From Prorocentrum cordatum (taxonomy: Eukaryota > Sar > Dinophyceae > Prorocentrales > Prorocentraceae), in NCBI GenBank assembly GCA_963575745.1, contig CAUYUJ010012736.1, forward strand, positions 237,501 through 301,500: DNA of 64,000 bases, in the 5' to 3' direction. A program made the translations under genes and the position numbers. Below the pieces are notes generated by a model. It saw only the letters and a program-made list of their open reading frames with translations, searched no databases and had not been told where the DNA came from. The first letter of the stretch is position 1. Every line of letters begins with the position of its first letter. Of this stretch, positions 6,271-41,095 are shown one piece after another.

Positions 6271-6499
6271 GGACTAGCGGCATCCGTCTTGCACTCACGG
6301 AGAAAAGGAACCCGGGGCCAAATTGGCCGCGCAGGAAGAAGAGGGAGGGAGCGGCAGCAGGGGGCGCCTGGCCCGCGCACTCGAGAATGCGCGGCCCAGC
6401 CGGGGAAAAGGGGCAAGGCAAAAAGCAAGCGGGTTGCCGCAGAATTCACACCAAGATGCAGTTCAAAACCTCGCCTCCGACGACGGGGCGCACGGGCCT

Positions 6500-7221
6500 A
6501 CGGACGAGCGGTTCCTCCCGCGGGCCACGACGTGGTTCCATCCCTTCTAGGGGAACTCCACGTTCGATCCCGTTTGTGATTGCGCGCTGACTGGCTGCCA
6601 CGTGGCCAGGGCGCATGGCCAGACCGTCGGGTTGGCCTCCTCCATGCTGAGCGACGCGACCCGGGCGCCCGCGCGCCATGATTCATAAGCGAACAGCGAA
6701 GCTCACTTGGAACACGATTACATCGAATGACAATTGGCGCCTGGACAGCGGGCGAGAACTGGCGCTGCATTCAAACCGACGTTCCCACACAGCACATATT
6801 GGATATCGTCGCCATTCCACCGAACTTTCTGCGCCAGGGGAAATATTACACCTTCTGCAGCGCAAGCCGTGTCTACCCATCCCACGCTGCTTCGTCTGGC
6901 GCCCGCTGTGGACCTCCGAGAGCACGGCGGGCGGCGCCCTCGATCCGCTGGGCCACATCTGCAACGGTTCCCGAGGCACGCTGCTCACATGGGTCCTGGC
7001 CAAAAGGTGCTGCCGCAGTTCCAGGTTACCTGCGGCTGGATGTCTTTCGTCGCCTTTGCCACTGCTGCCCCGGCAAGTTCGCCCGCCGCTGAATTTGCGA
7101 GTGAAGTTTCTGGGCCCTGGCGTAGGAGGTCCCGTTCATCCAGGTGCAAGTAGCGCCTCTTAAGAGCGGTGCCTTCGCGTTCACCTAGCCGATTGTCAAC
7201 AGCTTGTTTGCCTGCTATCCA
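6500..7221 (-). other. Unresolved minus-strand coding-like segment
   Basis: Minus frames contain peptide-like runs, for example QKVRWNGDDIQYVLCGNVGL at about 6,836-6,777, without repeats but broken by stops. A Cys-rich alternative frame lies at 7,003-6,683. It may belong with the neighbouring minus-strand ORFs. No family was recognised. Confidence 0.2.
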
Positions 7222-16832: not shown

Positions 16833-18230
16833 TTATCCCGGCAAAGCAACCTAACAGCGATGTGTAGAAGCATATATGGAAGCATTCCCCTTAAGATTCA
16901 GATGAGAATCCAGTTGTAGAGTTCTGCTGTTCTCGCAGCCTGCCTCAGCCTCAGCCTCAGCCTGCCTCAGCATCAGCCTCAGCCTGCTTCAGCCTCAGCC
17001 TCAGTCTGCCTTCAGCCTCAGCCTCTGTGCCTCAGCCTGCCTCAGCCTCAGCCTGCCAGCCTCAGCCTCAGCCTGCTTCAGCCTCAGCCTCAGCCTCAGC
17101 CTCAGCCTCAGCCTGCCTCAGCCTCAGCCTCAGCCTGCCTCAGCCTGCCCTCACCCTCAGCCTCAGCCTCAGCCTCAGCCTCAGCCTCAGCCTGCCTCAG
17201 CCTCAGCCTCAGCCTGCCTCAGCATCAGCCTGCCTCAGCAGCCTCAGCCTGCCTCAGCCTCAGCCTGCTTCAGCCTCAGCCTCAGTCTGCCTTCAGCCTC
17301 AGCCTCTGTGCCTCAGCCTGCCTCAGCATCAGCCTGCATCCGCCTCAGCCTCAGCCTCAGCCTCAGCCTGCCTCAGCATCAGCCTGCCTCAGCGTCTGCC
17401 TCAGCCTGCCTCAGCCTCAGTCTGCCTTCAGCCTCAGCCTCAGCCTCAGCCTCAGCATCAGCCTGCCTCAGCCTCAGCCTCAGCCTGCCTCAGCGCCTCT
17501 CAGCCTCAGCCTGCCTTCAGCCTCGGCCTCAGCCTCAGCCTGCCTCAGCCTCATCAGCCTCAGCCTGCCTGCCTCAGCCTCAGCCTCAACAGCACCCATT
17601 CTCAGCCTCTGCATCAGCATCAAAATGTGGCCCGGGAATGGAGTTCTGGGAACTCGAAGAGCACGAAGTGGCCTACAGTTGGCTCCGGGCATTCAAAATG
17701 TGGCCCGGGAATGGAGTTCTGGGCACTCGAAGAGCACGAAGTGGCCTACAGTTGGCTCCGGGCATTCAAAATGTGGCCCGGGAATGGAGTTCTGGGAACT
17801 CGAAGAGCACGAAGTGGCCTACAGTTGGCTCCGGGCATTCAAAATGTAGCCCGGGAATGGAGTTCTGGGAACTCGAAGAGCACGAAGTGGCCTACAGTTG
17901 GCTCCGGGCATTCAAAATGTGGCCCGGGAATGGAGTTCTGGGAACTCGAAGAGCACGAAGTGGCCTACAGTTGGCTCCGGGCATTCAAAATGTGGACCGG
18001 GAATGGAGTTCTGGGAAGTCGAAGAGCACGAAGTGGCCTACAGTTGGCTCCGGGCATTCAGAATGTGGCCCGGGAATGGAGTTCTGGGAGGTCGCAAAGA
18101 GCACGAAGTGTGTGACTGTTTGCGAAAAACAAGTTCGGACACGAGTTCGGACACAGCTCCCAGGATGCTGCCCAGACCCCCCTGTGGAGTCATCTGCTGC
18201 TCTCTTTTGAGACCACTAGAAACCTATCAG
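16833..18230 (+). repeat. Composite satellite, copy 1 (5' unit + AGCCTC + 73-bp + 3' unit)
   Basis: Four modules in fixed order: a 106-bp 5' unit (16,833-16,938, starting TTATCCCGGCAAAGCAACC); a degenerate AGCCTC hexamer array with frequent AGCCTGCCTC variants (16,939-17,600); a 73-bp tandem array of about 6.6 copies (17,621-18,108; junctions at 17,694, 17,767, 17,840, 17,913, 17,986 and 18,059); and a 122-bp 3' unit (18,109-18,230, containing GAGTTCGGACACAGCTCCC). All three plus frames stay open through the 73-bp array, but no known protein results. Confidence 0.9.
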
Positions 18231-18284
18231 TCTTCGCTGTTAGGTAAAAACCCGAAGCCTTGTGCGTGCGTTCCCCGAAGCAAG

Positions 18285-18693: not shown

Positions 18694-20390
18694 TTATCCC
18701 GGCAAAGCAACCTAACAGCGATGTGTAGGAGCATATCTGGAAGCATTCCCCTTAAGATTCAGATGATAATCCAGTTGTAGAATTCTGCTGTTCTCGCAGT
18801 CGTAGTCGCATTCGCGATGACAGTCGCAGTGGCCTGCATCACAGCCTCAGCCTCAGCCTCAGCCTGCCTCAGCCTCAGCCTCAGCCTGCTTCAGCCTCAG
18901 CCTCAGTCTGCCTTCAGCCTCGGCCTCAGCCTCAGCCTGCCTCAGCCTCAGCCTGCCTCAGCCTCAGCCTCAGCCTCAGCCTGCCTCAGCATCAGCCTCA
19001 GCCTCAGCCTCAGCCTCAGCCTGCCTCAGCCTCAGCCTCAGCCTTCAGCCTCAGCCTCAGTCTGCCTTCAGCCTCGGCCTCAGCCTCAGCCTGCCTCAGC
19101 CTCAGCCTGCATCAGCCTCAGCCTCAGCCTCAGCCTGCCTCAGCATCAGCCTGCCTCAGCCTCAGCCTCAGCCTGCCTCAGCCTCAGCCTCAGCCTGCTT
19201 CAGCCTCAGCCTCAGTCTGCCTTCAGCCTCGGCCTCAGCCTCAGCCTGCCTCAGCCTCAGCCTGCATGAGCCTCAGCCTCAGCCTCAGCCTGCCTCAGCA
19301 TCAGCCTGCCTCAGCCTCAGCCTGCCTCAGCCTCAGCCTCAGCCTGCCTCAGCCTCAGCCTCAGTCTGCCTTCAGCCTCGGCCTCAGCCTCAGCCTGCCT
19401 CAGCCTCAGCCTGCATCAGCCTCAGCCTCAGCCTCAGCCTGCCTCAGCATCAGCCTGCCTCAGCCTCAGCCTCAGCCTCAGCCTGCCTCAGCCTCAGCCT
19501 GCCTTCAGCCTCAGCCTGCAGTCTGCCTTCAGCCTCGGCCTCAGCCTCAGCCTGCCTCAGCCTCAGCCTGCATCAGCCTCAGCCTCAGCCTCAGCCTGCC
19601 TCAGCATCAGCCTGCCAGCCTCAGCCTCAGCCTCAGCCTCAGCCTCCCTCAGCCTCAGTCTGCTTCAGCCTCAGCCTCAGTGCCTGCCTCAGCCTCAGCC
19701 TCAGCCTGCCTCAGCCTCAGCCTCAGAAGCCTGCCTCAAGCCTCAGCCTGCATCAGCCTCAGCCTCAGCCTGCCTTCAGAATGCTCTGCATCAGCCTCAG
19801 CATCAGCCTGCCTCAGCATTCACTTCGGGAACTCGAAGAACACGAAGTGGCCTACAGTTGGCTCCGGGCATTCAAAATCATGCCCAGGAATGGAGTTCTG
19901 GGAACTCGAAGACCACGAAGTGGCCTACAGTTGGCTCCGGGCATTCAAAATCATGCCCAGGAATGGAGTTCTGGGAACTTGAAGAGCACGAAGTGGCCTA
20001 CAGTTGGCTCCGGGCATCCAAAATGTGGCCCGGGAATGGAGTTCTGGGAACTCGAAGAGCACGAAGTGGCCTACAGTTGGCTCCGGGCATCCAAAATGTG
20101 GCCCGGGAATGGAGTTCTGGGAAATCGAAAAGCACGAAGTGGCCTACAGAAAATGTGGCCCTGGAATGGAGTTCTGGGAAGTCGAAGAGCACGAAGTGGC
20201 CTACAGTTGGCTCCGGGCATTCAGAATGTGGCCCGGGAATGGAGTTCTGGGAGGTCGAAGAGCACGAAGTGTGTGACTGTTTGCGAAAAACGAGTTCGGA
20301 CACGAGTTCGGACACAGCTCCCCGGATGCCGCCCAGACCCCCTGTGGAGTCATCTGCTGCTCTCTTTTGAGTCCACTAGAAACCCATCAG
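18694..20390 (+). repeat. Composite satellite, copy 2
   Basis: 5' unit 18,694-18,799; AGCCTC hexamer array about 18,840-19,815; 73-bp array about 19,826-20,270, with some units altered (two read AAAATCATGCCCAGG in place of AAAATGTGGCCCGGG, and one has lost part of the unit near 20,150); 3' unit about 20,270-20,390. The order and flanks equal copy 1. Confidence 0.9.
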
Positions 20391-20414
20391 CAAAAGCTGT
20401 TAGGCAACAGTAAA

Positions 20415-26505: not shown

Positions 26506-27146
26506 CCCTGAGCCTCAGCCTCAGTTGGCTCCGGGCATTCAAAATGTGGCCCGGGAATGGAGTTCTGGGAACTCGAAGAGCACGAAGTGGCCTACAGTTG
26601 GCTCCGTGCATTCAAAATGTGGCCCGGGAATGGTGTTCTGGGAGTCGAAGAGCACGAAGTGGCCTACAGTTGGCTCCGGGCATTCAAAATGTGGCCCGGG
26701 AATGGAGTTCTGGGACGTCGAAGAGCACGAAGTGGCCTACAGTTGGCTCCGGGCATTCAAAATGCAGCCCCGGGAATGGTGTTCTGGGAAATCGAACAGC
26801 ACAAAGTTGCTTACAGTTGGCTCCGTGCATTCAAAATGTGGCCCGGGAATGGAGTTCTGGGAAGTCGAAGAGCACGAAGTGGCCTACAGTTGGCTCCGGG
26901 CATTCAGAATGTGGCCCGGGAATGGAGTTCTGGGAAGTCGAAGAGCACGAAGTGGCCTACAGTTGGCTCCGGGCATTCAGAATGTGGCCCGGGATGGAGT
27001 TCTGGGAAGTCGAAGAGCACGAAGTGCGTGATTGTTTGCGAAAAACGAGTTCGGACACGAGTTCGGACACAGCTCCCCGGATGCCTCCCAGACCCCCCTG
27101 TGGAGTCATCTGCTGCTCTCTTTTGAGACCACTAGAAACCTATCAG
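26506..27146 (+). repeat. Composite satellite, copy 4 (73-bp array and 3' unit)
   Basis: Only two or three AGCCTC hexamers remain, then about seven 73-bp units (26,525-27,028; one has an extra C, one an A-rich variant near 26,790) and a 3' unit (27,028-27,146). The 5' unit is missing. It lies immediately outside the retroelement terminus. Confidence 0.9.
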
Positions 27147-27176
27147 CAAGAGCTGTTAAGTAAAAACGACGACAAT

Positions 27177-27235
27177 GCCAACTACCGTTGTCTGAACTCG
27201 CCCTCCTCTGACGCAGTCATCGCGCTACCAAGCGG
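27177..27235 (+). repeat. Flank repeat C, left copy
   Basis: The sequence CTACCGTTGTCTGAACTCGC then CCTCCTCTGACGCAGTCATC matches 40,916-40,970 (CTACCGTTGTCTCAACTCGC) with few changes, in the same orientation. The two copies lie just outside either end of the retroelement. Confidence 0.7.
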
Positions 27236-27420
27236 AAAATTGCGCTGCGAAGCGGCCGCGGCGCCTGCGGCTCAGGGAGCGGCGGCGGGTCCGCGCTGGC
27301 AGCAGCAGGGAGGGACAGCCCTATGGGCCACACGAGCCCGCACTGACCTGTGGCATCGCTCTGTGGGTGCCTCGGGCTCAGAAGCCCAGCCCCTGGCATG
27401 CGCCCAAAAGGGGTTGGGCG
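27236..27420 (-). repeat. Terminal repeat B2 of the retroelement
   Basis: Begins (plus strand) AAAATTGCGCTGCGAAGCGG and repeats B1 (27,677-27,861) at a spacing of 441 bp with only scattered differences, e.g. CTGTGGGTGCCTCGGGCTCA in both. Confidence 0.8.
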
Positions 27421-27426
27421 GGTGGG

Positions 27427-27675
27427 AAAATCGAGGGATGGACCCCGACTCCCTGCCGGGCCAAGCGAAAGCGCGCTCGCGGCAGACGCGGGATCAGAGG
27501 CCTCGGGCCGACAACCTAACCAGACCCCTTCCAAGCAAATCGATTTCAAATTCGAGCCACCCCGACCTCCTTATCAGCCAAGGGGACGATCTCCAGCACG
27601 GAAACAACGTAATCAATCCGAGCCGCGACACTTCCCAACGAATTCTCCGATACATTACATGCGTTTACGTCTGCA
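27427..27675 (-). repeat. Terminal repeat A2 of the retroelement
   Basis: Runs (plus strand) from AAAATCGAGGGATGG to CGTTTACGTCTGCA and matches A1 at 40,457-40,703 along its whole 249 bp, with substitutions and 1-2 bp indels. It sits exactly between B2 and B1. Confidence 0.8.
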
Positions 27676-27676
27676 C

Positions 27677-27861
27677 AAAATTGCGCTGCGAAGCGGCCGC
27701 GGCGCCTGCGGCTCAGGGGGCGGCGGCGGGGCCGCGCAAGCAGCAGCGGGGAAAGACAGCCCTATGGGCCACACGAGCCCGCACTGACCGGTGGCATCGC
27801 TCTGTGGGTGCCTCGGGCTCAGAAACCCAGCCCCTGGCAGGCGCCCAACGCGAGGGCTGGG
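27677..27861 (-). repeat. Terminal repeat B1 of the retroelement
   Basis: Near-copy of B2. It directly follows A2 and lies just downstream (minus strand) of the recombinase stop codon. Confidence 0.8.
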
Positions 27862-27954
27862 CGCGCTCTCTGCCCGACGCGCGCGCCACTACTGGCCCTC
27901 CGAACCGCTATCGCTGTGGTCGGCCAGCAACTGCGCACAGGCGCCCGTTTCTAA

Positions 27955-29217
27955 TTAGTGTTCTCCCATGTGCGCCATGAGCGCGGCCGATTTCCATCCT
28001 CTGGCCTGAAGGGCCCCCCGGAGCTGGCAGCGCAGGGCGGCCGCGTCTTGGGCGGCGCCCCTGCGGAACGCGCGCGCCCCCGCGCCGGGGGCGCCAGCGT
28101 TTTCGCCAAAAGAGCGCGTGCGCTCCAAGAAGAACCGGTAGCTGAACGAAAACGCGCACGAGCGTCTGCTGACCCTCGCGAGCTCTACTGCGCACCGCAA
28201 ACGACGCAAGGCGCGCGTGCGTCGCCCTTGGTTCGCGCAGGCGCGCCCCCTACGGAGGGGGACCGGAAACGCATGGTTTTTCCGGCGAGCTAGCGCGACG
28301 TCGACGCGCCGTGCGCTATAAACGATGCCTGAAGCCTCACGGGGCGTGAACTGCCCGACTTCCAAGCGCAGCATCTTTGACTGGGCGCGGAAGAAAAAAC
28401 TGCGCGCGATCACAAAAGCGTCGGCCAATTCCTGTTGGCCTTGCGCCTCTGCAGCAACGACCATCTTTCGCGCGGCGCCCCCGCGGAGCACGGGGCGCCT
28501 CGATTGCACGACGGGCGCGCCCCTCTGGGAGGCGCCCTTTGCCAGTTGCTGAAGGCCGCCGCTCCACCAGCCGACCAACTTGTGGGCCCGCCGAGGATGT
28601 TGCAAATACTTTGCTAAAGTTGTCCCGCGCGGGACAAAAATAACTAGCTGCCAAGCGCGCGCGATGGCGGCAGGGAAGCGAGGCAAATGGAAACATTCAC
28701 AAAATTCTGCCCGCGCGCGCAGGGCGCCCAGCGTCGACTTCCACGAGCCCCCGATGGCTCCCAGAGCTGACCTCCGAGGCCCTTCGAGCAGCGAGCCGGC
28801 CTGCAACTCGCCCGCAGGGCGCCCCCGCCGTGCTAACCGCAATGCCCCGAGGCGTTTCCTCGGGCCGCCGTCGGGCGGGAATTGCTCTGCGAAGCGCGCT
28901 GCGAACGGTCTCCGGCCCAAAGCTGCGCAAATCACCTGCTCGTCGAAATATTCGCCCATAGCGCGCGCAACGTCGACGGCAAAGGATTGGCCCCGAAGGA
29001 CCTGCGACAAGGTTTGGCCCCCTCCAGGCCTCGGGCGGCGGGGGTTCGCCAGCGCAGTCGGCTGTGGGCCCCTGAGCGGCGCGGCCTGCCCGCTGCCGGG
29101 AACGCACGGCACCGCGCGCCTGGAAACAGAACCGAGGCCACGCGGCCCGCCGGCGGCGTGAGTGAGCCAAGCTGGCTCGCGAGGGCGCCTGGGATTCCTG
29201 CTGCGCAGGACCGGCAC
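27955..29217 (-). CDS. Tyrosine recombinase of the retroelement, probably inactive
   Basis: An uninterrupted 420-codon frame. The N-terminal 150 residues are Arg/Pro-rich and unassigned. Residues about 158-218 look like the helical core-binding domain (CECFHLPRFPAAIARAWQLV, then GTTLAKYLQHPRRAHKLVG). The catalytic domain follows: Arg277 in FFFRAQSKMLRLEVG (box I), Lys313 in ARRKNHAF, RAFRRGAAQ at 382-390 (box II, normally HxxR) and GWKS at 407-410 with the terminal MAHMGEH, where families usually show a Tyr. So Arg, Lys, the second Arg and Trp are present, but the box II His reads Arg382 and the nucleophile position reads His416. In life it would join circular cDNA to target DNA. Family assignment rests on motif order. 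The start codon is arbitrary. Confidence 0.55.
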   Translation of the reverse strand: MPVLRSRNPRRPREPAWLTHAAGGPRGLGSVSRRAVPCVPGSGQAAPLRGPQPTALANPRRPRPGGGQTLSQVLRGQSFAVDVARAMGEYFDEQVICAALGRRPFAARFAEQFPPDGGPRKRLGALRLARRGRPAGELQAGSLLEGPRRSALGAIGGSWKSTLGALRARAEFCECFHLPRFPAAIARAWQLVIFVPRGTTLAKYLQHPRRAHKLVGWWSGGLQQLAKGASQRGAPVVQSRRPVLRGGAARKMVVAAEAQGQQELADAFVIARSFFFRAQSKMLRLEVGQFTPREASGIVYSARRVDVALARRKNHAFPVPLRRGRACANQGRRTRALRRLRCAVELARVSRRSCAFSFSYRFFLERTRSFGENAGAPGAGARAFRRGAAQDAAALRCQLRGALQARGWKSAALMAHMGEH

Positions 29218-29229
29218 CCTGAAGGTACT

Positions 29230-29960
29230 TACTTGCGCGCGTCCATGCTAAGCTTTATGAGGCGTTAGGGCACTGCATAACTCTTTAGCTAACTCCAGCT
29301 CGATCTTTAGGGCACTTTAGTGCACTTTAACAACTTTAGCATGTTGACTTCGCATAGTTTAGCATCTCCTGCTATATTTTAACATAATTCAGGGCACTCT
29401 GGGACTATTTTAAGCTAATTTAGCATAGTATGAAGATGCACGTCTTTCTGAACAAAACAGTTTCCTCGCATGTCTGCATTGCAAACTTACTTCGGTTTTT
29501 GCTATAGGTCGCATAGCACGCGAACATGTTGTTGTTTGTTGTTTTTTCTGGTATTTCAGCGTTGCAAGCGTATGTCGCATTTGTTGTTTGTCATAGGTTG
29601 TATGTCGCGCGAACGCAGTTTTGTAGATGACACTTTAGCACAAGTAGTTTGACTTGCTTCTGTTAGTTTAGCATTGCAAACTGCTTCGCATGTTGTTTGC
29701 GATCGGTTGTAAGATACGTTAGCACCGTTACGTTCAGTGTTCTGGCTTTTAACACTTACCACGTACAGCACCATTGCATGTTCCTGTTTGGGGTTGTTTG
29801 TTATTTGATACGCATCGATGTATTATGGTGTTATGTCTGTGTATATACTTCACATACTTCACAGCCAAGTGTTTACTCATTTCTTTTTTGTCTAACATGT
29901 GCGTGAGCTTTTTTGTGTGCTAGCACCTGGCACTTTTGAAAAGAATACATGCCCACTCAA
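29230..29960. other. AT-rich island with TTTAGCA motifs and a decayed ~100-bp tandem repeat
   Basis: Composition drops sharply in GC. TTTAGCA or TTTAGCT occurs many times between 29,284 and 29,680. Three degenerate units begin near 29,476, 29,561 and 29,673 with CATTGCAAAC or CGTTGCAAGC and contain GTCGCAT/GTTTGC/ATAGGTTGTATGTCGCG blocks. No ORF of note. Confidence 0.5.
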
Positions 29961-30631
29961 CCTGATATGAACGCAATGAAAGGCACACCCTCTTGAAACG
30001 ACTACAGGTCTATCGTCCATGTGATGCGTTTGTTCCATCGCGTCGAGCTGTTGGCTCCGTTTCTCTCTATTTTGGCGGGGCGATCGAGCTGCCCGCGGAG
30101 GTCCCGCGCGCTCGCGGCTGCAGCCCGCGCAAGCTCGCGGCTGCAGCCCGCGCGACCTGCAACGCCCCGCACAATGCAGCTATTCCAGCATAGTTTAGCA
30201 CCCGTCGCCCGCGACGGCTCCTGCGCGCGCGGTGGCCACGCAATCGAATGACTAGGTCGCGCCGGGCGAGTTGCCCCGCCGCGTCATGCGCCACGCGCAA
30301 GCGGGGGGCGCTCATGGCTGAGCGGGGGCAGGTCCGCGCTCGCCCACTCGAGGTCGGCCTCGCGCGGGAGCTAACGGCGTCCCCTGAAATTAGCGCGCCG
30401 ACGCGTCCCGCCGCACTGCGTTTTTTGAAGGTTCGAAGAGGGCGTCCGACGCCGAGCAGCGCCCCAATGTAGATTGGCGGGTCGGAACCGTAGGCGTTCG
30501 TGCCAGTGGCCGCAGCGGCGCGCTGGCGGGCGTCGACGAGATCACCAGCACGGATATGGGATATTCACGAGGCTGCTGCCGATCCAGATCGGCGCTGCAG
30601 CGGGGAAGAGCTTGCCGCGGCAAGCGGGGGC
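29961..30631. other. CpG-rich sequence with a short tandem duplication
   Basis: GCTCGCGGCTGCAGCCCGCG occurs twice in tandem (30,111-30,157). No protein was recognised. It may be the upstream region of the plus-strand exon-like block that follows. Confidence 0.3.
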
Positions 30632-31043
30632 ATGAATGCTGCAGCGACCCGCGGGTTTAAAGGCGGATCCTCGTTCCGCAAGACGCAGGGCGCGACGGCG
30701 ATGGAGGCGCCGCCGCTTGGCAGCGCGGAACTTAAGAAGGCCATCGAGAAGAACCAGGAACTAGCCCAGCGCTCGGGGGGTCGACTGCCCCCCCCCCCCC
30801 CTGTCATGGGGCCGCGTGAGGTTGTTCGCCATTGGGGGCAACTGCGCGAACGCTTTCTGTGGGGAGGTAAAGGCAGGCTGCACCATGCCAGTGGCGGAGC
30901 TCACAGAGGACGACCCCAGGCTGTCAATGAAGAAGCTCGTGAACCAGAGTGCGGTCATACAGGCCGTGGCGGAGGGCCTCAAGTGGACCGTCATCTCCTA
31001 CGCTGTAGAGACGCAGGTGCCAACATTCGTGGACTTCGCCTAA
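30632..31043 (+). CDS. Possible host-gene exons 1-2, hypothetical protein
   Basis: Two plus-strand segments look like spliced coding sequence. The first (from the ATG at 30,632 to about 30,781) contains GSAELKKAIEKNQELAQRSG, an amphipathic helix. The second (about 30,876-31,043) follows a plausible acceptor (AAAGGCAG) and contains VAELTEDDPRLSMKKLVNQS and AVIQAVAEGLKWTVISYAVE. They are in different frames and separated by a poly-C run and likely intron. There are no simple repeats in the coding parts. Function is unknown; the boundaries are inferred. Confidence 0.3.
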
Positions 31044-31066
31044 GCAGCTGCCGCTCCACCGCCGCC

Positions 31067-31125
31067 CTATATATACATATATATGTATATATATATATAT
31101 ATGTATATATATAATCGTATATTTA
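31067..31125. repeat. TA/TATATG microsatellite
   Basis: About 58 bp of TA dinucleotides with ATATACATATATATGTATAT palindromic interruptions, lying between the exon-like segments. Confidence 0.9.
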
Positions 31126-31442
31126 TTTCACGCACGCAGCCAGCCAGCTGAATTCAACCAAAGGCTGCGCCAACGGCTGCCCGTCCGCAGCGACATGGGA
31201 CTTAGCCCGATCGTTGCATCGCGCTGCGGCGGACACATAAGGCCCTTAACGTTGAGGTGAGGGAGGAGAAGACTGAGATCACTGCGACGATGGGCATGTG
31301 AAACGCGATCGGCGCGGCCAGCAACGCAGGGATGGAGCCGCGCTGGAGCGCCAGCATCCACGCGAGCATGTCTGAGCAGCCAGCGCGTTCGGATTGGTCG
31401 GTGCACCTGCCGGCGCGCGCCAGGGAGCGCGGCGGGAAAAAG

Positions 31443-31909
31443 GGGTCTGCTCAAGGATTTGGACACGTACGCGAAGGCCGATGGCTGCAGCCATTTCCTT
31501 CGCCCCCCTGCCCCCATTGCGCCCGCCGCGAATCGCCGCTGTGGCAGCGACGCAGGTGGAGGCTGGCGCGATCAAGGTCATGGGCTCGGAGCTCATGCAG
31601 AGCATCGTCGCCGCCTGGAAGAAGCTCAAGTCCAACCCCGCCCCGCGCATGCGCAACGCGATGCCGAAGGGCCGCGTCGCGAGCCCCGCGCCTCGGGGCG
31701 GAAGGTGCGCGCGCATTAACCGATTAGTGTTGCTTATGTTGGTTGCGTCGCTGCTGCTGTTGCTAGCGTTGTGTGATGGTGCTGTTGCTGGTGTTGGTGT
31801 TGCCGCTGCCCACGCAGAACAAGGCCGTGATGTCATTAAGCAAGAGAGAGGAAGACGCGAAGCGGGTCGAGAAACTCACGGGCGCGGCGCGCGCGCTCAT
31901 CGACTCGGC
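31443..31909 (+). CDS. Possible host-gene exons 3-4, hypothetical protein
   Basis: A plus-strand segment (about 31,548-31,705) reads VEAGAIKVMGSELMQSIVAA then WKKLKSNPAPRMRNAMPKGR and ends near a GGAAG|GTGCG donor-like site. After about 110 bp the acceptor-like GCTGCCCACGCAG is followed by NKAVMSLSKREEDAKRVEKL then TGAARALIDSAG and a GGCAG|GTGACG donor-like site at about 31,911. The phases of the first donor and second acceptor do not join directly, so an extra exon or shifted site is needed. Possibly the same gene as the 30.6-31.0 kb exons. Confidence 0.3.
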
Positions 31910-31911
31910 AG

Positions 31912-33240
31912 GTGACGTGGAGGACCCCCGGGCTGAGCTCGCGGGGCCACTGCGTTCGGGTTTGCACCCTTGGGCTGATGCCCGCGCGGTGATAAGCATT
32001 GCGCCGCGCGCGCCGTCCGACGGATCGCTCTTTGGCGTTGGCCCTCGGGGTGCTCGACTGCAAGTGCGCGAAATTATTGGCGGGCAGGCGGGAATTGGAG
32101 TGCAGGGGGGAAGATTGCGAAAGTATTGGCGACATTGCCGTGGACCTTTGCCGCGGCGGTCGGCTGCAGCTGACTGCGCGCGCCGCGTTAGCAACAATCG
32201 CGCGGTGCTGGGTCATCGCGGTTGGTTAATAGTGGCGCTTGCCAGCCTTCCTCGCGTTTCTCCCCATGCCATTCTTCGCGCGTGATCGTCGCCATCGCCG
32301 TTGTCAGCGCCGGCGCAGCCACTGCGGCCATGGGCGAACCATGGGGCAGCGAAGCGCGCGATGGTGCGCCGAAATGCGCGCGACGGAACCAAACGGACAC
32401 ACCTGTTGAGGCATTCGGCGGATCACATGCGGATGCGAAGCGCGCGCGCGTTGCCGACGAAGGCGCGCGGCGCGGGCGACGGGGGCCGCGGCCCAACGCG
32501 GACGCGCGGACAACGACGCGGCTATTTCAACAACTGCTGCAGCCCAGCTCGGGCGAGCGGGCGACGCTCTGCGAGGGCCTGCGCTGCGGCGCGGCGGCGC
32601 GCCGCCCATTCCGAGATAACAATGGCCTGCAGCAGAATGGGAATAGATTGCGAGGAGGGGGATGGGGCGGGGTGGAGACGCGCCTCAATCGATGGCCCGT
32701 CGTCCGGCTTCTCGGTCTCGCCGCCGTCGCTGCTCTCCGTCTCCTCGCTGCTTTCCGTGCCCTTGTCCTCGATATTGTTATCGCCCTCCGCCTCTTCCTC
32801 CTCCTCTCCTCGTCGCGCAGCATGCCCGCGTCGTCGTTGGGTCAGGGCGTCGACGCGGGCGAAGTGCTGCAGCCGCCGCCGCCAGCCTCGTGACCGCCGC
32901 CGTCCGCGCCGTTGCCGCCGCCGTCCGATTCGCCGTTCAGCGGCGGCGGCGGAGGCGGCGCCAGCGCCGCGTCGGGGGCGACCGCCCCCCCCGCCCGCGG
33001 CGACCGTGACGGGGGAGGGGGTGGCAACCCCTCCATAGCCCGCGCGCGCCGAACGATTTGTTGCGCCCAGCTGTAGCTGGGCATCGGCGCAACGCGTTAC
33101 ATCGCATGAGCTGCAGCTCTTCTGCCTGGCGCTTAAGCAGGATTGAATGATTCGCCTGGTCAGTCTGAAGCCCCTCGGACTTTGAGGCCCGCGGGGAGTG
33201 GAGACGCGGCCTCGCTTCGCCAGCTCAGGAGAGCGAGGCT
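31912..33240. other. CpG-rich unresolved sequence
   Basis: Very GC-rich with long ORFs on both strands. The plus ORF 32,222-32,893 contains TTRLFQQLLQPSSGERATLC, which could be coding, but no domain or clear splice site was seen. GCCGCC-rich low complexity occupies 32,870-33,010. Confidence 0.25.
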
Positions 33241-33249
33241 CGAGCCAGG

Positions 33250-33450
33250 CCAGGAGGAGGAGGAGGGGGGGCCGGGGGGGGGGCGCGACGAGGGCGATGC
33301 GATGAGGAGGAGGAGGGAGGAAGCGAGAATAAGGGGGACGAGGAGACGGGCGAGGGGGAGAAGGAGGAGGAGGAGGAGGAAGGGGGATGAGGCGGAGGAT
33401 GAAGAGGAGGAGGAGGAGGAGGACACCGAGGATGAGGAGGAGCGAGACAT
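33250..33450. repeat. GGA-rich purine array
   Basis: GGA/GGGGGA triplets with interruptions; translations are Glu/Arg-rich. Confidence 0.85.
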
Positions 33451-33529
33451 ACGGCTTCTGGGTCGCACGCTTCGCTCAGGTGCTCTGCAAAATCCGCCGC
33501 GGGTGTAGGGGTGGCACGTTTCTTCCCCG

Positions 33530-33790
33530 TCCCTCGTCTTCCTCCTCCTCCTGATCTCCCCCCTCCTTTTTCGTTATACTTCCCCCCCTCGTCCTCCTCC
33601 TCCTTCTCCTCCACTTCCCTATCTCCCCCCCCCCCCCTCCCTTCTCACATCATATTTCGTTCCTCTCCCTCCTACTCCTCCTTATCCCCCTTCATCCCCC
33701 GTCCCCCTTTTTTTCCCCCCCCTCCCTCCCCCCCCCCCCCCCCCCCCCCCCCCCCCACATCCCTCCCTCCTCCCTGCGCTCTACTTTATC
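33530..33790. repeat. Pyrimidine tract with a 29-base C run
   Basis: CT-rich TCC/CCCT repeats; an uninterrupted C homopolymer spans about 33,728-33,756, with shorter C and T runs on its left. Confidence 0.9.
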
Positions 33791-33829
33791 TCTCTTCCTT
33801 CCTCCTCCCCCCCTGTCGGGGCCACCCTG

Positions 33830-34175
33830 GGGCTCTTTTTGGGCCTCTCTTGGGGCCCTCTCGTGCCCTCTTGGAGCCGCCTTGAGGCGTCGGAGGGCCA
33901 TCGAAAACAAAGAAAGCGAGAAGGCGACAGCCATTGTTATTTCTCAAGTGCTTGAAGGATATTGGCCTCGTGGCGGCCTCCTGCGGAGTCTCCGAGGCCA
34001 CTTGGAGCTGTCTTGAGACGGTCTCGGGGCCCCTCGGGGCATCTGGGAAACCATCTTGGGCCATCTTGAGCCACCTTGGTGGTCATGTTGGGCCCTCGGC
34101 GGCCCCCTCGAAGCCATCTCGGGCCATCTTGGACGGCCCGGCCCCCCCCCCCCCCCGGAAAACCCCCCGGCGGGT
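33830..34175. repeat. CTTGGGGCCTC array (inverse of CCCAAGAGG) and G/C runs
   Basis: Degenerate units such as TCTTGGGGCC and CATCTTGGGCCATCTTGAGC, then C and G runs at 34,141-34,190. No gene is supported. Confidence 0.7.
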
Positions 34176-34815
34176 AAAGGGGGGGCCTGCGCCCAAAGAG
34201 CTGGCTGGACTTAGAGGCAACGCTCGCGTGCCTCATCATTATTCTCATTTGGAGTCAGGGCTGGTTGTTCACTTGTCATTGCGATCTGTCCGGGCGGAAC
34301 AATTTCGAGTCATGCGCCAGCGCCATCGTGACTCCCATGTGGAGTCAACGAGTCAACGAGCCAGGCTGGCTCGACCAGCGACTCTGAATAACATTCGGAA
34401 TGGCGCGCGCACGAGCGGGGGAAAGGTCAGCCAGCGACGAGCGCAAAGCAGCATGCCCTAGGCCACTGCGGCGGCGGAAGACGAGAAGGAGGAAGAGAAC
34501 GAGGAGGACGGGCGGAGCGAGGAAGGATGCGTCGGGGGAATTAAGAACGAGGAGGATGAGAAAAAGGGAGGGGATGAGGAGGGGATAAACATGCGAGGGC
34601 GACGGACAAAGAAGACAGTAAGGGTATGCAGGCAACGCGGGCGCACCCTGGCAGCTCGGCGCTCTGTGCATTTTGCTATTGATCGTGTTCCTCTTCTCCC
34701 CCCACTTGCCCTCCTCCTCCTCCTCCTCCTCTTCCTCCTCCTTTCCCTCCTCCTCCTCCTCCTTTCCCTCCTCCTCCTCCTCCTCCTCCTCCCCCCTCCT
34801 AGTCACTTAGCGAAA
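34176..34815. repeat. Unassigned spacer with GA-rich and TCC arrays
   Basis: 34,200-34,460 has no recognised feature; 34,470-34,600 is purine-rich (GAGGAGGAC); 34,700-34,800 is a TCC array. All lie just downstream (minus strand) of the methyltransferase relic. Confidence 0.6.
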
Positions 34816-34819
34816 TCAG

Positions 34820-36511
34820 CTATGCCCGCCCGTCGAGCAGCTGGCCTTGATTCGCCGACCCCGCCGAAGGCGACAGCTGCACAAACAAACGCCCCAAGAC
34901 ATTCTGGCCCATTGCGTTCCCCAGCGCGTGGCCGAAACACACGCGGCCCGGGCCCATGCCTCGCGCGCGCGCCTCCTCATCAACGGCGGTCTTGCGGCGC
35001 CGGGATGCCAGCCAGATACCAGGAGATGCACCGCGCGAAGCGGTCAAGCAGGGTATCATGTTGACCTTGCAGATCAACGCGCTGGAGCCCGCATCAACGG
35101 CCACCTCGTGTTTGGAAGTGATCTCGGGGCCATCGTAGGTCTTATTGCGCAGCTTAACCTTGGGGGCGGGCTGCTCCATCATCCTTCCCCCCTCCTCGGG
35201 CCCCCTCGCTACGGATCCGGGGCCGCGCTCTGACTGGCCGGGAGTGCCGGGCGAATCCGGCGATGGCAGCGCGGGGCCTCGCATGAGGCCCCACGTGGCG
35301 AAGCCGAGGCAAAGGCAGCAGCGTCGGCGCCATTCCGACGGCGACCGCGACCGCGACGACCACGTCGACTAAGGACGACGATGCAAAGGTGGATAGCCCC
35401 CGAGAGCCCCGGCCTGTTTGCGCTGGCGGTTCGCCGTCGCCGCGAGCTGGCCGTTGGCGACCCTCATGGGGTTGGGGGTCGCGGCGAGGTCCGGAGTGGG
35501 CGAGGGCCTCATGGGGGGGGGCGGTCAGAGCAACATCTTCGTCCTCCTGCTCCTCCCCCTCCTCGGCCTCCTCCTCACTTCCTCCTCTTCCTCCTCCGTT
35601 GTCGTCTGCCCCTCCTCCCCATTCATCATCACCCCCCCTGCTCTTCATGTCCCTCTCATGTTTTTGCAAACGTGCAGTGGCCCGCGGGAACTTGAAGGGG
35701 TGTTTCGTCTGGCTCTTGAGCGTGCCAACGATGCGCACGCGCGAACGATGAAGCGGCGCGCCGTGTTCCCAAGTGCGAAACATCTGCTAGCGGACGTCGC
35801 GCAGGGGCCGGTTATTCTGGCCTTTGATGTCCTCGAGCTGCTTCAGGATCCAAGCAAAGTATTCGGAGTGAATCTTAACCTACCCTGGGACATTTTCAAG
35901 TACGAAGGCCCACGGCTGCGCACGCCTGCGGTACTTGATAATGTCTATGATGACGTCGCCCCGCTCATCATTCTGTCCGAGGTGGCGACCACTCTGTGAA
36001 AATGGCTGGCAAAGGGAACCAGCCGTGAAAAGATCGGCCCGCCCACGAGGGCATCCAGGCAGTGGCCTTATCACGTGTCCATCTCCTTGCCCTCACACCT
36101 CCCCGCCCGCCATCTCCCTCCGCGGCCCTCCTGCGACTGGGGGGTCTGACGGGCCGCGTCAGCGATGCAATGGGCGAACGGAGCGCGCCTCGTGAACAAG
36201 GTGGACGAAGCGTCGTCCAAGATGAAATCGCAGGCGGGGAGATTGGCGGCCAAATGCTTGCGCAATTGCACCTTCTGCTCGCACATGAAGACGGGTGCTG
36301 CGTTCACGCCGATGGCCTCCAGGGCCAATTCGTCAGTCCCCAACCCTGTGCAACAACTCCCGGTGGTCACCTTTGGCTTGTGAGTAGTGGGCTCAACAGC
36401 TGCTGCTGGGCAACGCCGAACCGTCGACGACATGGGGGCGGCAGCTGCTGGGCGCCGAAGAGTCGTCAGCGTCGATGAGCCAGCCGAGGACTGTTTCTTG
36501 ACAAGAACCAT
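34820..36511 (-). pseudogene. Cytosine-5 DNA methyltransferase relic
   Basis: Minus-strand pieces carry C5-methyltransferase motifs in the right order: motif I GSCCTGLGTDELALEAIG (36,361-36,308); motif IV SLCQPFSQSG, with the catalytic Cys kept but the usual PCQ Pro replaced by Leu (about 36,017-35,988); motif VI FVLENVPG (35,906-35,883); motif VIII GAPLHRSRVRIVG (about 35,762-35,724); motif IX-like PCLTASRG (about 35,053-35,030); motif X ALGNAMGQNVLGRLF (34,927-34,883). Lesions: a frame change near 36,074, in-frame TAG codons at 35,882-35,880 and 35,789-35,787 (protein similarity continues across both), another frame change before motif IX, and a low-complexity insert at 35,400-35,670. It would have methylated cytosine in DNA. 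It sits between the RT start and the recombinase of the same-strand retroelement. Confidence 0.75.
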
Positions 36512-36689
36512 CGCTGGGTTTCAACGGGCCTTCTTCGCAGGCGAGCCGACGACATCCCAACCCAGGTCCATGAGGCCGACGGGCGTGCCCAGAGTTGGGG
36601 GCACAGAGAAGCGGGGGCGCACGCAGAGCCACAACAGCTTCCATACGAGTCGAAACGCAGTCAACGCTTTAAACATTGGAGCTTATTTG

Positions 36690-36840
36690 AATCATCATCA
36701 GGTCACCCCTCCTCCTCCCCCTCCTCCTACTTCTCCTCTTTTAACGCCTAGCCTTGCCGATCCCCCTCCTCCTTCTCCTGGGGCCCTCCTCCCCCATTCT
36801 CCCCCTCGCCCTCCTCCCCCTCCTATTCCTGCGCATCCCT
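36690..36840. repeat. Degenerate TCC/CCCCT array
   Basis: CCTCCTCC and CCCTCC pyrimidine units. Confidence 0.8.
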
Positions 36841-36872
36841 GATCGTCTCAACTCGCGTGGGCGTCGGTTATG

Positions 36873-36901
36873 GATGGGTTGGTGGGGGTGCGTGAAGCGT
36901 C
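36873..36901 (+). repeat. Dispersed GGTTGGTGGGGGTGCGTGAA motif, copy 4
   Basis: GATGGGTTGGTGGGGGTGCG then TGAAGCGTCAGGAAT; same string as the other copies with a few changes. Confidence 0.65.
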
Positions 36902-37009
36902 AGGAATGAGGATTTTTGCTTATGGCCCTGTAAACGTGGGCGCTGGCGCCAAAACATAGTCGGCTCCAAATATGAATCCAGATCCCGGCCCCTCCTCCTC
37001 AAGCCTCCC

Positions 37010-37423
37010 CCTGCCAGGGAGGGCCGCGGGGGGCGACGGCCGCTCGGGGGCCGCGACTTCCCGTCGGGAGGGCCGCGACGGCGGCGACGGCGACGGCTGC
37101 GACGACGACGGCGGCCACAACCAAGAGGAGCAGAAATATAACAAAGGGACGGGGAGGGCGAGGGGGGCGAGGGGGGCGAGGAGGAGGAGGAGGAGGAGGG
37201 GGAGGAGGAGGAGGACGAGGAGGATGAGGACGCGGCTGCGGGGGCGGAGGCGGATGAGGAGGAGCAGGAGGAGCAGGAGGAGGAGCAACGAGGGGAACAG
37301 CCGCCATCGCTCGAGGCAGGAGGAGGGTGGATGAGGGTGGAATGTGAAGGATGCTGATTTTGCTGATGAGAAGGAGCTGCAGTAGCGGGAGGAAGGGGGG
37401 GAGAAGCACGAGGAGAAGGAGGA

Positions 37424-37454
<31 letters not shown>

Positions 37455-37500
37455 GAGGAGGAGGAGGAGGAAGAGGAGGAGGAGGGGGGCTAGCAGACGA
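37010..37500. repeat. GCGACGG/GAC and GGA arrays inside the retroelement
   Basis: GGCGACGGC units (37,030-37,110) followed by GGA/GGC triplets (37,155-37,300) and a purer GGA array (37,410-37,490). They replace or interrupt where the remainder of the RT and RNase H domains would be expected. Confidence 0.8.
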
Positions 37501-37539
37501 GCCAGAAGCCCCTTGAATGCCTCTCGGAGTCTTCTCGCT

Positions 37540-37700
37540 TGATGTATTGTGGAGGCCTTGTGGAGGCCTGTCGGGGCGTCTTGGGGCCTCTCGGCGGCCC
37601 TGGGTGCGTCTTTGAAGAGCGCATTGGGTGCCTCGGGGAGCCCCCTCGCCCATCTTGGGGGTCTGCTCCTGGCTAGGGCACGCCGTCTTGAAGCGCCGAC
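37540..37700. repeat. GGGGCCTC degenerate array
   Basis: Units such as TCTTGGGGCCTCTCGG, related to the CCCAAGAGG family in inverse orientation. A G-run follows at 37,729-37,742. Confidence 0.6.
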
Positions 37701-37769
37701 GAAGCCGTCCTTCCCGATAAGAACCCCGGGGGGGGGGGGGGGCCCTGCGGGCGGGGCGCGGCGCAAGCC

Positions 37770-38093
37770 GTGCAGTAGAGCCAACTCGTCGTGAGACAAA
37801 TGGTCGCGCTTGTCATTCCACGCGCGCTCTGTCATGAACGCACAAGCGTTGACGCCATTCTTCTTGAGGTTGTCAATTATGCGGATTTTGCGTTCCCCCT
37901 CTCGCTGCCCCTCAATTCCGAATCTTTCAACGAGGAGGACATGGCCTAAATCCACTTCGTGGAGAGCAAGCGGCGGCCCAAATTTCCCCGAAGCTACCTC
38001 CTGCAAATGTTTCTGCCATGCGGCCTCCGCATGGGGGCCTGGCCTCGCCCCGGCTATCGCGGCGTCATTAATCGCCCGACATTGGTGGAACAA
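37770..38093 (-). pseudogene. Reverse-transcriptase N-terminal fragment
   Basis: About 108 residues of coding-like sequence, including VERFGIEGQREGERK then KIRIIDNLKKNGVNA (37,889-37,845), which resembles the K-[IV]-R-x-[IV]-D start of the fingers of retroelement reverse transcriptases, followed by MTERAWNDKRDHLSHDELAL. The palm motif with paired Asp was not found; the frame runs into poly-Pro from G/C runs and then GGA arrays. Its place between the gag-like ORF and the methyltransferase supports the call. Confidence 0.45.
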
Positions 38094-38755
38094 TTCATCT
38101 AGGCCTTCCCTGCATTGCGCGGCAACGCCGGATCAGGCAGTTGTCGCCCGGCGCCACCAGCTCCATACAGGGCCAGAAACAAGGGAACATCGGGATAAGT
38201 CCCCCATGGAATTGCCGTCTTGGTGGCCTACGGCCCAAGGCCGTGGATTCCCCAGGGCGGGTCGGAATTTCGCTCGGAGGGAATCGACCCACTGCAGGCG
38301 ACGGTCCGACAGCGCCGCGGACCGAGCTTTCCAAAAGCTTACAGTTTCTTCCCTCTGGGCGGCCACGCCTGCGGCGTCGCTCAAAATCCTCCGGATATTG
38401 TCTGAAATGTCGGGGCCGCGGGGAGGGAGCGGGTCGCCCTGCGGGCGGGCCTTCAATCCGACGCGGGCGTTTTCCCCCGGACCAACAGGGGGGCCCCGGC
38501 CAGACACACGGCGCCGCAAATGCCCGCCGCCCTCCGGGCGAGGCGGAGCGAGGCGGACGCGCGCGTCAGCGCAGGCAGGCTGGTCGGCAGGCGCGCGGCC
38601 GGCGGCCCTGTCCGCGGCGCCGCTAGGGCCCGTGCGAGCGCCGTTCCAAAACCTGCCCTGCGGGCCATCCCTCGCGGGGGTTGCAAGAGGTCGGAGAGGG
38701 GGGTGGGCAGGCGGGGGGGGGCGGGCAGGGGGGGGGGGAGGAGGGTGGGGGGGCA
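38094..38755 (-). other. Retroelement internal sequence, no domain recognised
   Basis: Minus ORF 38,888-38,133 contains DISDNIRRILSDAAGVAAQR then WVDSLRAKFRPALGNPRPW, non-repetitive and probably part of the polyprotein upstream of RT. No motif could be assigned. Confidence 0.3.
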
Positions 38756-39165
38756 ATCTGTCCACCTTGACACCGCGCCTGCGGCGCAAAGCGTTGCGCG
38801 CTGCTATCCGTTGGCCTGCGGCCGCCATCATTCGCGCGCGCAGCGCTAACCTCTGCTTCGCCAGGTACGCGGCGATGTGCATCGCCATTCAAACGACTGC
38901 CCCGCGGGCGACACCCTGCGGGGATGATAGGAAGAAGCGGGAAACGAGGAGGGGGGGGCAAAGGGGGCGAAGAGGCAGGGGGTCAACTTGTCCACCCTGA
39001 AAAGGCGCCTGCGGCGCAAAGCATTGCGCGCCGCCATTCGATGGCCTACGGCCGCCATCACTCGCGCGCGCAACGCGCGTCCCTGCTTCAACGGGTACGT
39101 GGCGATGTGCATCGCAGGGCCCTGCGGGCGTTCACTTCCAAACCTTGCCATTTCCCATCGGGCCG
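38756..39165. repeat. 230-bp tandem duplication inside the retroelement
   Basis: CCTGCGGCGCAAAGCGTTGC at 38,778 recurs at 39,008 (CCTGCGGCGCAAAGCATTGC). The upstream TTGTCCACC and downstream GCGATGTGCATCGC also recur, a spacing of 230 bp. Minus translations of both copies read ARNALRRRR-like peptides. Between the copies is a G-rich patch. Confidence 0.75.
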
Positions 39166-40167
39166 GCCCGCGGGCGCGGGCGCCCGCGCTCCGGGGCCAG
39201 GGGCGGCGGCGGCAGCGCCGCCGCCTTCCCGCGCGCAGGCTGGCTCGCGTGGCCCTGAGGGCCCCTGCCCGCGCCCCAGCCGCTGCGGCCTGCGCCGTCG
39301 CCGGCCTGCCTTGCCCTGTTGCTCTGCTCCTTGACGTCGCTGCGCAAGGCGTGGCCGACCTTCTCGAAGCTGGCGCCCGGATCTACCGAGGGATCCTTGT
39401 GCTCGATCTGCGTGCCGAAGCGGAGCCATTCCTGGCGGTCGTACTCGTGCGCGACCGTGACGCCGAGCTCCTGCGCCATGTGGCACAAGTCGAGGAAGCG
39501 CCTGGGCAACCGCTCGGAAGTGACGGCCTCGCTGTTGAGGTCCGCCTGGAGCGAGAGATGGGGCAGCACCCTGGCCCACCAGCAGCTGGTAAAGTGGGCG
39601 AACGACTGAAACGGCCACCTGGCCCTTCTGCGGCGGGCGCAGAGTGGCGTCCGACGTCCTCTTCAGCGACTCGACGTCTTTCTGCAAATCGCTGGTGACC
39701 CACGGGAGCCGCCCGTGGCTGGCCTTGCGGCGGCTCCGCCAAAGCAGCCGCTGAAGGGGAGCCAGCTGCTGCAGGTGCTCAAACGGCAAACCGTTGAGCC
39801 CGTAGCGCTTCAACCCCTTGCACACGTTCACCGAAGCGGAACCCTCGTCGTCCGAGTCGGATGACACCGAGCGGTCCCCGTGCTGCTTGGCGCCGCCGGC
39901 CCTCGCCCTGCGGGCGATGGCCCGGAGTGTGGCGACGGACTCCGCCTGGAAGTCGGCGCCTGCTGCGGCAGCGCTCGGGGCACTGCCGTCGCTGCCAGCG
40001 GTCTGCTGTACCTTCTCCACGACGGCCGAAGCCAGCAGAAAGGCACGGTGATCTAGATTGAAAGTGAGCGGATCACGGCACGCCGTCTGGAGGATTTCCC
40101 GGTTCACACATGTGAATTGCCACGCCTCGTGGAGGCCAGCATCCTCAAGGAGACCGGCGACCCTCAA
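39132..40167 (-). pseudogene. Gag-like first ORF of the retroelement, frameshifted
   Basis: The minus frame from the ATG at 40,167 (MRVAGLLEDAGLHEAWQFTC) is coding-like for about 199 residues to PLYQLLVGQ. At about 39,570 the frame shifts by one base and the protein resumes as LPHLSLQADLNSEAVTSERL then PRRFLDLCHMAQELGVTVAHEYDRQ, to the stop at 39,132. The predicted helices and an acidic Ser/Asp patch (SVSSDSDDEGS) fit a structural or nucleic-acid-binding ORF1, but no zinc knuckle is visible. Placed about 290 bp inside terminal repeat A1. Confidence 0.45.
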
Positions 40168-40456
40168 AAACTCCAGTTCAGGACGCCCTGCGGGCTAAAG
40201 GCACGAAGCAAAACTTCGGAGCTCTTGCCCGACGCCGTACGGCGAGGCTTTTCCGGAAGCTCGAGGTCTACCAGTGAGGGAGAGCGCCCCTTCGCGGGGG
40301 CAGCAAAGCCAGCGGCTACGGGGCTGCCGGGCTCGCGGCGGCGCCGCGAGCGGGAGCGCCGGGAGGAAGGGCTTCGGGCCGACTCCCGGCGAGCATCGCC
40401 CGGGGGCGGCATCGCGCGCGGGGCGGTAGGGGGGGGCCCGACTCTGTGCTTGACCC

Positions 40457-40703
40457 AAAATCGAGGGATGGAACCCCGACTCTCTGCTGGGCCAAGCGAG
40501 CGCGCGCGGCAACCACGGGATCGGAGGCCTCGTGCCGACACCCTAACCAGATCCCATCCAATCAAATCGAATTTCGAATTCGAGCCACCCCGACTTCCTT
40601 GCCAACCAAAGGGAGAACCTCCAGTACGGAGACAACGTATTCAATTCGAACCGCGACCCTTCCCAACGAATTTTCCGAGATGTTAAGCACGTTTACGTCT
40701 GCA
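40457..40703 (-). repeat. Terminal repeat A1 of the retroelement
   Basis: Runs (plus strand) from AAAATCGAGGGATGG to CGTTTACGTCTGCA and matches A2 (27,427-27,675) throughout, e.g. ATTCGAGCCACCCCGAC in both. Marks the 5' end of the element on the minus strand. Confidence 0.8.
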
Positions 40704-41095
40704 GAACACTCGCGCAGAACAAATTGTAGGAAATCACGAACAACGCTTTCCTACGTTCCAAATGTGCGAACGTATCGAGTGAAAGCGACGCAGCGAATTG
40801 TAGGGAAGCGCGAACCACCATGTCCTACAATTGATTTGGCCACGAACCAATCCCACCTACAATGCCGAAACCTACATCGCCGTTATCTACGTCGCCGTTC
40901 GCGCGTCGACGGCACCTACCGTTGTCTCAACTCGCCTTGCTCTGATGCAGTCATCGTGCCACCGGGCGGAAAGCTGAGTAAAGAACACAAGGACTTGCCA
41001 GGCCACGGCAGACTTCCGCCGCGCAAAGCCTCTCCGAAACCCAGACCCGAGGCACGGCCCGAACAGCGCAACCCCTCCTGAGACCATGGTGGCCC
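40704..41095. other. Right flank of the retroelement with flank repeat C
   Basis: Contains internal repeats of AATTGTAGG...CGCGAAC type (40,721-40,830) and, at 40,916-40,970, the second copy of flank repeat C (CTACCGTTGTCTCAACTCGC). No gene recognised. Confidence 0.45.

Follow-up and report, generated by a model that had tools for sequence, protein, structure and literature searches.

SymbioDIRS-Dnmt3, published in 2018 by de Mendoza et al., is described there as an element with repeats in the order A-coding-B-A-B, a C5 methyltransferase and a tyrosine recombinase (YR), in which the methyltransferase, conserved in many copies, lies in the Pol frame together with the reverse transcriptase (RT) (PMC5890265). 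According to the same account, DIRS elements without DNMT coexist with it in Symbiodinium (PMC5890265). C5 methyltransferases are moreover reported from DIRS and Gypsy elements (PMC6338049), and Ngaro elements are defined, in the description given in PMC4157794, by split direct repeats (SDR) downstream of the YR and by having no methyltransferase, such features being said there to arise repeatedly. A literature search on DIRS elements or retrotransposons of Prorocentrum gave no paper among those covered.

The locus analyzed here lies in a 64,000-nucleotide stretch of Prorocentrum cordatum DNA (contig CAUYUJ010012736.1 of assembly GCA_963575745.1), hereafter the window, in whose numbering positions are given. 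A preliminary description had read positions 27,236 to 40,703 as an SDR retroelement with a C5 methyltransferase in its coding region and had regarded this combination as worth defining as a family; C5 methyltransferase with SDR ends had already been published in 2018 as SymbioDIRS-Dnmt3 (PMC5890265). Compared by description, the locus shares with SymbioDIRS-Dnmt3 the dinoflagellate host, the A-coding-B-A-B repeats and the YR, and differs in that the methyltransferase there is part of the Pol frame, whereas that of the window is foreign DNA at one locus; a C5 methyltransferase within the Pol frame was found neither in the window nor in the relatives that were read. With the Symbiodinium DIRS elements without DNMT, again by description, the element shares the dinoflagellate host and the lack of a methyltransferase. 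The likeness to Ngaro is one of architecture: in two whole relatives of the window element (L069 and L073) no methyltransferase was found, Pfam being insensitive here, and the internal repeats are downstream of the YR. The differences are the dinoflagellate host and the state of the window copy, which is dead and split.

Repeats and coding remains in the window

The repeats and the coding remains of the element are arranged as follows:

40457..40703, minus strand: A1, left terminal repeat, 84% identical to A2; linked to gag also in L034, L037 and L038
39144..40535, minus strand: gag-like region, broken, with pieces in two frames that match residues 54-526 of the 531 in the L069 gag frame (tblastn)
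37695..39128, minus strand: pol, its first half alone, in two frames that match residues 2-489 of the 866 in the L073 pol frame (tblastn)
27895..29229, minus strand: C-terminal 449 residues of a tyrosine recombinase, with one internal stop (75.5% identical to L073 residues 242-690 of 690)
27677..27861, minus strand: B1, internal repeat
27427..27675, minus strand: A2, internal repeat, flanked by B1 and B2
27236..27420, minus strand: B2, right terminal repeat; outer end ...GCGCAATTTT

The coordinates of the repeats, their single orientation and the position of A2 between B1 and B2 were reproduced as first described. A1 and A2 are 84.1% identical over 252 aligned columns (35 mismatches in 245 compared bases) and B1 and B2 94.2% identical over 172 bp, with 19 mismatches over the full 185 bp; both alignments are far above chance (E 5e-65 and 6e-73), and neither pair is identical in the window copy.

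The coding traces were located by tblastn with the frames of related copies as queries. The gag, RT start and YR that had been claimed for the minus strand were all recovered in this way, with the qualification that gag is broken, the RT ends before its catalytic motif and the YR contains a stop. The window pol stops short of the QPFGA and YVDD motifs, so that the RT is without its catalytic half. The catalytic positions of the recombinase are changed, HxxR to RxxR and Tyr to His, and the recombinase frame alone gave no match in the PDB. When the window was searched with Pfam, as had been proposed for the profiles PF00078, PF00145 and PF00589, a piece of the C5 methyltransferase (PF00145) alone exceeded the cut-off; neither the RT nor the recombinase did.

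A 60-bp repeat (85% identity) was additionally observed at 27179-27238, directly outside B2, and at 40913-40972, 210 bp outside A1, readable as ..YRCLNSP.SDAVI... Furthermore, a 73-bp tandem repeat with a common flank occurs in the window at 26518-27166, 17617-18251 and 19824-20402; it is part of a high-copy repeat, about 180 bp of which are present at at least 39 further places among the 60 matches listed.

Related copies, element ends and inferred cycle

A genome search with the 626-bp B-A-B unit listed at least 42 matches, including the window's own, and all or nearly all of the unit was present in at least 16 other loci (in both cases with 40 of 65 candidates scored). The copies most useful for comparison were:

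L069 (contig C12002): A1 251-547 and A2 6658-6951 (A pair 98%); B1 6483-6670 and B2 6958-7143 (B pair 96%)
L073 (C2955): architecture as in L069; gag frame broken by a short insert
L074 (C16277): part of gag and pol lost; recombinase split over two frames
L071 (C4594): 86-87% identical to the window; interior continuous up to gag, with A1 not seen
L070 (C1310): matches only in B-A-B and onward into pol

L069 and L073 are whole, with the order A1-gag-RT/RNaseH-YR-B1-A2-B2 in 6.9-7.2 kb, A pairs of 97-98% and B pairs of 96-98% identity, and in L069 long gag, pol and recombinase frames lie between the repeats. The feature by which SDR elements are recognized, A1...B1-A2-B2 at the ends, is present in the window, in L069 and in L073. 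The pol of the relatives contains YVDD and an RNase-H-like TDA stretch, both read by eye; the L069 pol frame, in which YVDD is present, shares 48% identity with P0001 and 27% with P0002. RVT_1 was detected only weakly in the pol of the relatives, with E 0.017 for the L069 frame and 0.057, both under the Pfam cut-off, and a comparison of this pol with the PDB gave no convincing match. Against Cre, the recombinase of L073 scores E 3e-9, and the alignment pairs HxxR, W and the catalytic Tyr; no Pfam family was found in this frame. Together, the whole copies and the Cre match back the earlier assignment of the A and B repeats as termini of an SDR-type YR retroelement.

Of the recombinases at 16 other loci, 15 retain the His of HxxR and 13 retain the Tyr. 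The exceptions at the Tyr position are L020 (identical with L069), which has His, L032, which has Cys, and L010, which is broken there; because of the His at its Tyr position, L069 gives no evidence for a working recombinase.

At the internal B1/A2 junction, 15 of the 17 loci where it was found have AATTTTC|TGCAG; the window, with AATTTTG, and L010 depart from this. Directly beyond the outer B end, 17 of 19 loci have a C, where L022 and L023, which have one common right flank, are counted twice. The outer A ends were counted after removal of the pattern hits that fell within the recombinase or away from A repeats and of L032, whose site is an internal junction, and with the common left flank of L069 and L073 taken once; the tetranucleotide preceding the end is TTTC in 8 of 13 distinct flanks and GTTC, CTTC, TTTT, TCTT or TCTC in the rest, and the flanks otherwise look unrelated.

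SDR elements are known to proceed by reverse transcription and then through a circular intermediate. By analogy, reverse transcription of this element would lead to a circle joined at the B/A junction, and the recombinase would join this junction to a T-rich target; the TTTTC-like borders seen at most ends, in unrelated flanks, are what such recombination could be expected to leave. The methyltransferase would have no part in this cycle, as suggested by its absence from the relatives read. L025-L028 are solo A-B remnants with foreign flanks and no coding region, comparable to solo LTRs, and correspond to what recombination between A1 and A2 would be expected to leave.

Breakpoints, foreign DNA and the methyltransferase

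The interior of the window element is interrupted between two sharp breakpoints:

37660..37664: right breakpoint, with element sequence above and foreign DNA below; the alignments of L071 and L069 begin at 37,660 and 37,663
33122..37659, minus strand: methyltransferase-bearing stretch, low-copy and dispersed, unrelated to the element (L040-L046, L072)
34823..36520, minus strand: C5 methyltransferase pseudogene, which as read by eye contains in-frame stops and changes frame twice
29228..33121: foreign DNA whose genome matches are all short or weak; microsatellite at about 31,068-31,127
29226..29227: left breakpoint, where other places stop and L069-L071 go on in element sequence

Between the breakpoints the window holds 8.43 kb, compared with 1.72 kb in L071 between the points matching 29,227 and 37,660, and about 1.7 kb, comprising the RT catalytic core and RNase H, is missing from the window element. 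With window positions 29,100-31,200 as query, all 18 other places end at query position 127-128; the matches at this left junction comprise 17 loci of at least 119 bp and one more, on C20669, of 68 bp with the same end point (40 of 433 candidates scored). For the roughly 3.9 kb from 29,228 to about 33,100 no full-length relative was present among the matches listed. Partial matches were pieces on C13940 (68% and 77%) and one on C21831 (65%), and the others were the microsatellite and further short ones.

That a C5 methyltransferase lies on the minus strand, as had been stated, is borne out by a PF00145 profile match at 35,883-36,092 (E 5.4e-13) and by a match to HhaI (E 1.7e-4). LCQPFS (in place of the usual PCQ), ENVPG, HRSRVRIVG and GNAM can be read in it, which we take to be the C5 methyltransferase motifs; from the PF00145 family the window copy differs by its broken frame. 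Across the same stretch L043 has a single open frame of 623 aa. Seven other copies match window 34.4-36.7 kb at 81-86% identity (L040-L046; L072 is a longer stretch round L040 and the same copy, so that the eight loci represent seven copies). In L041-L046 the similarity extends further, in pieces, to 37.65-37.66 kb, and in L041, L042 and L044-L046 these pieces are in turned orientation; two of the seven copies are in tandem on C16693, 7.65 kb apart. The 3.2-kb methyltransferase loci L041 and L042, on different contigs, are 100% identical and represent either a recent duplication or uncollapsed haplotypes. The genome search listed at least 129 PF00145 matches, many in open frames of 380-740 aa, and thus a large and varied C5 methyltransferase set in a dinoflagellate other than Symbiodinium.

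No methyltransferase was found in the four element interiors read (L069, L071, L073 and L074, in which a regular-expression search for C5 methyltransferase motifs also gave nothing), nor in shorter stretches at 24 further places. When the 33 element loci at these 28 places, most of them covered by 1.5 kb on each side of the match, were compared with two methyltransferase frames, the best E was 0.069; given this coverage, some copies may have a methyltransferase deeper inside. Nor did Pfam scans of the L069 and L073 frames match the Dam-like methyltransferase of DIRS elements, in a setting where Pfam barely detects the RT either. Conversely, with 1.5 kb covered on each side (about 3 kb for L072), tblastn gave no gag, pol or YR match near the seven other methyltransferase copies (L040-L046, L072; E<=1e-3) or at the other methyltransferase loci L001-L008 and L047-L068 (E<=1e-5). 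By eye and among the matches listed, the only contigs common to the two methyltransferase lists and the A/B list are C12732, that of the window, and C12002, on which methyltransferase and element are about 416 kb apart.

The genome was also searched with P0002 for methyltransferase-bearing DIRS elements. Among the 51 matches listed none covers residues 1-240; the one reaching furthest toward the N terminus starts at query residue 241, and three in all start ahead of residue 273 (49 of 9,361 candidates scored). The N-terminal part of P0002 has PCQS and ENP motifs that presumably resemble those of methyltransferases, a likeness that Pfam does not bear out. By eye, L075 and L077 look like gag-pol without a methyltransferase, and Pfam found no family in L075. 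A DIRS-like RT was observed at G000:C20499:590564-591859, inside an open frame of 2,177 aa.

Probable origin of the locus

The first reading, an SDR retroelement bearing a C5 methyltransferase in its coding region, fits the order and strand of the domains in the window, and such elements are described from Symbiodinium (PMC5890265). It was nevertheless rejected, and we consider it very improbable, in view of the breakpoints, the missing RT core, the mostly unmatched 3.9 kb, the relatives without a methyltransferase and the methyltransferase copies without an element: the gene is inside the 8.4-kb replacement, and A/B repeats are present where it is absent while its other copies lie apart from the repeats, which for the methyltransferase is the outcome that the first description had named as refuting it. 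The seven other copies without an element nearby and the 18 of 18 left-junction matches that stop at the breakpoint mark it as a neighbor and not a part. The methyltransferase was brought in with other DNA and is not an element gene. It is very improbable that the element took up the methyltransferase stretch and carried it along in later moves; in that event a few uncounted true chimeras would represent a further independent uptake by a dinoflagellate YR element.

The locus is very probably an SDR-type YR retroelement copy, old and dead, that belongs to a kind without a methyltransferase and was disrupted by 8.4 kb of unrelated DNA with the loss of 1.7 kb of the element; what looks like an element carrying a methyltransferase is most likely a composite formed by chance. 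The RT core and RNase H would have been lost together with the arrival of the 8.4 kb, which would carry a pseudogene copy of a C5 methyltransferase family resident elsewhere in the genome. Since no empty target site of the window element was found, in a match list dominated by the high-copy repeat at 26,980-27,166, the assignment of both halves to one insertion rests on their collinearity and common strand.

In a variant of this explanation, in which the methyltransferase is equally foreign, two pieces of the same family, each truncated on its own (A1-gag-pol start to the right, YR-B-A-B to the left), would flank an unrelated methyltransferase locus and would never have been one insertion. A1 and A2 are indeed not nearest neighbors (A2 ranks 9th for A1 and A1 ranks 6th for A2, of 29 A copies), in an A-repeat tree in which 3 of 24 forks are firm. 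The halves are, however, on the same strand, collinear and complementary, and divergence within the A pair does not differ clearly from that within the full-length B pair (p 0.24, compared with 0.006 for the ungapped 172 bp, so that the result hinges on the length of B); we regard two separate fragments as unlikely, with some weight left to them. Scaffolding could also have joined unrelated pieces inside the element, the published assembly being described as built with RNA-based scaffolding (PMC10666404); the window contains no N, and we consider such an artefact improbable.

The window element, disrupted as set out above, belongs in decayed form to a kind already known and is rather ordinary. 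A false positive of methyltransferase capture, suggested by domain order alone, is hereby removed, and the locus illustrates that, in large genomes, what looks like capture of a gene by a retroelement can arise from nested or composite loci. For Prorocentrum cordatum, the analysis sets out clearly how a family of SDR elements without a methyltransferase is built, including its ends, its junction motif and its solo A-B remnants.
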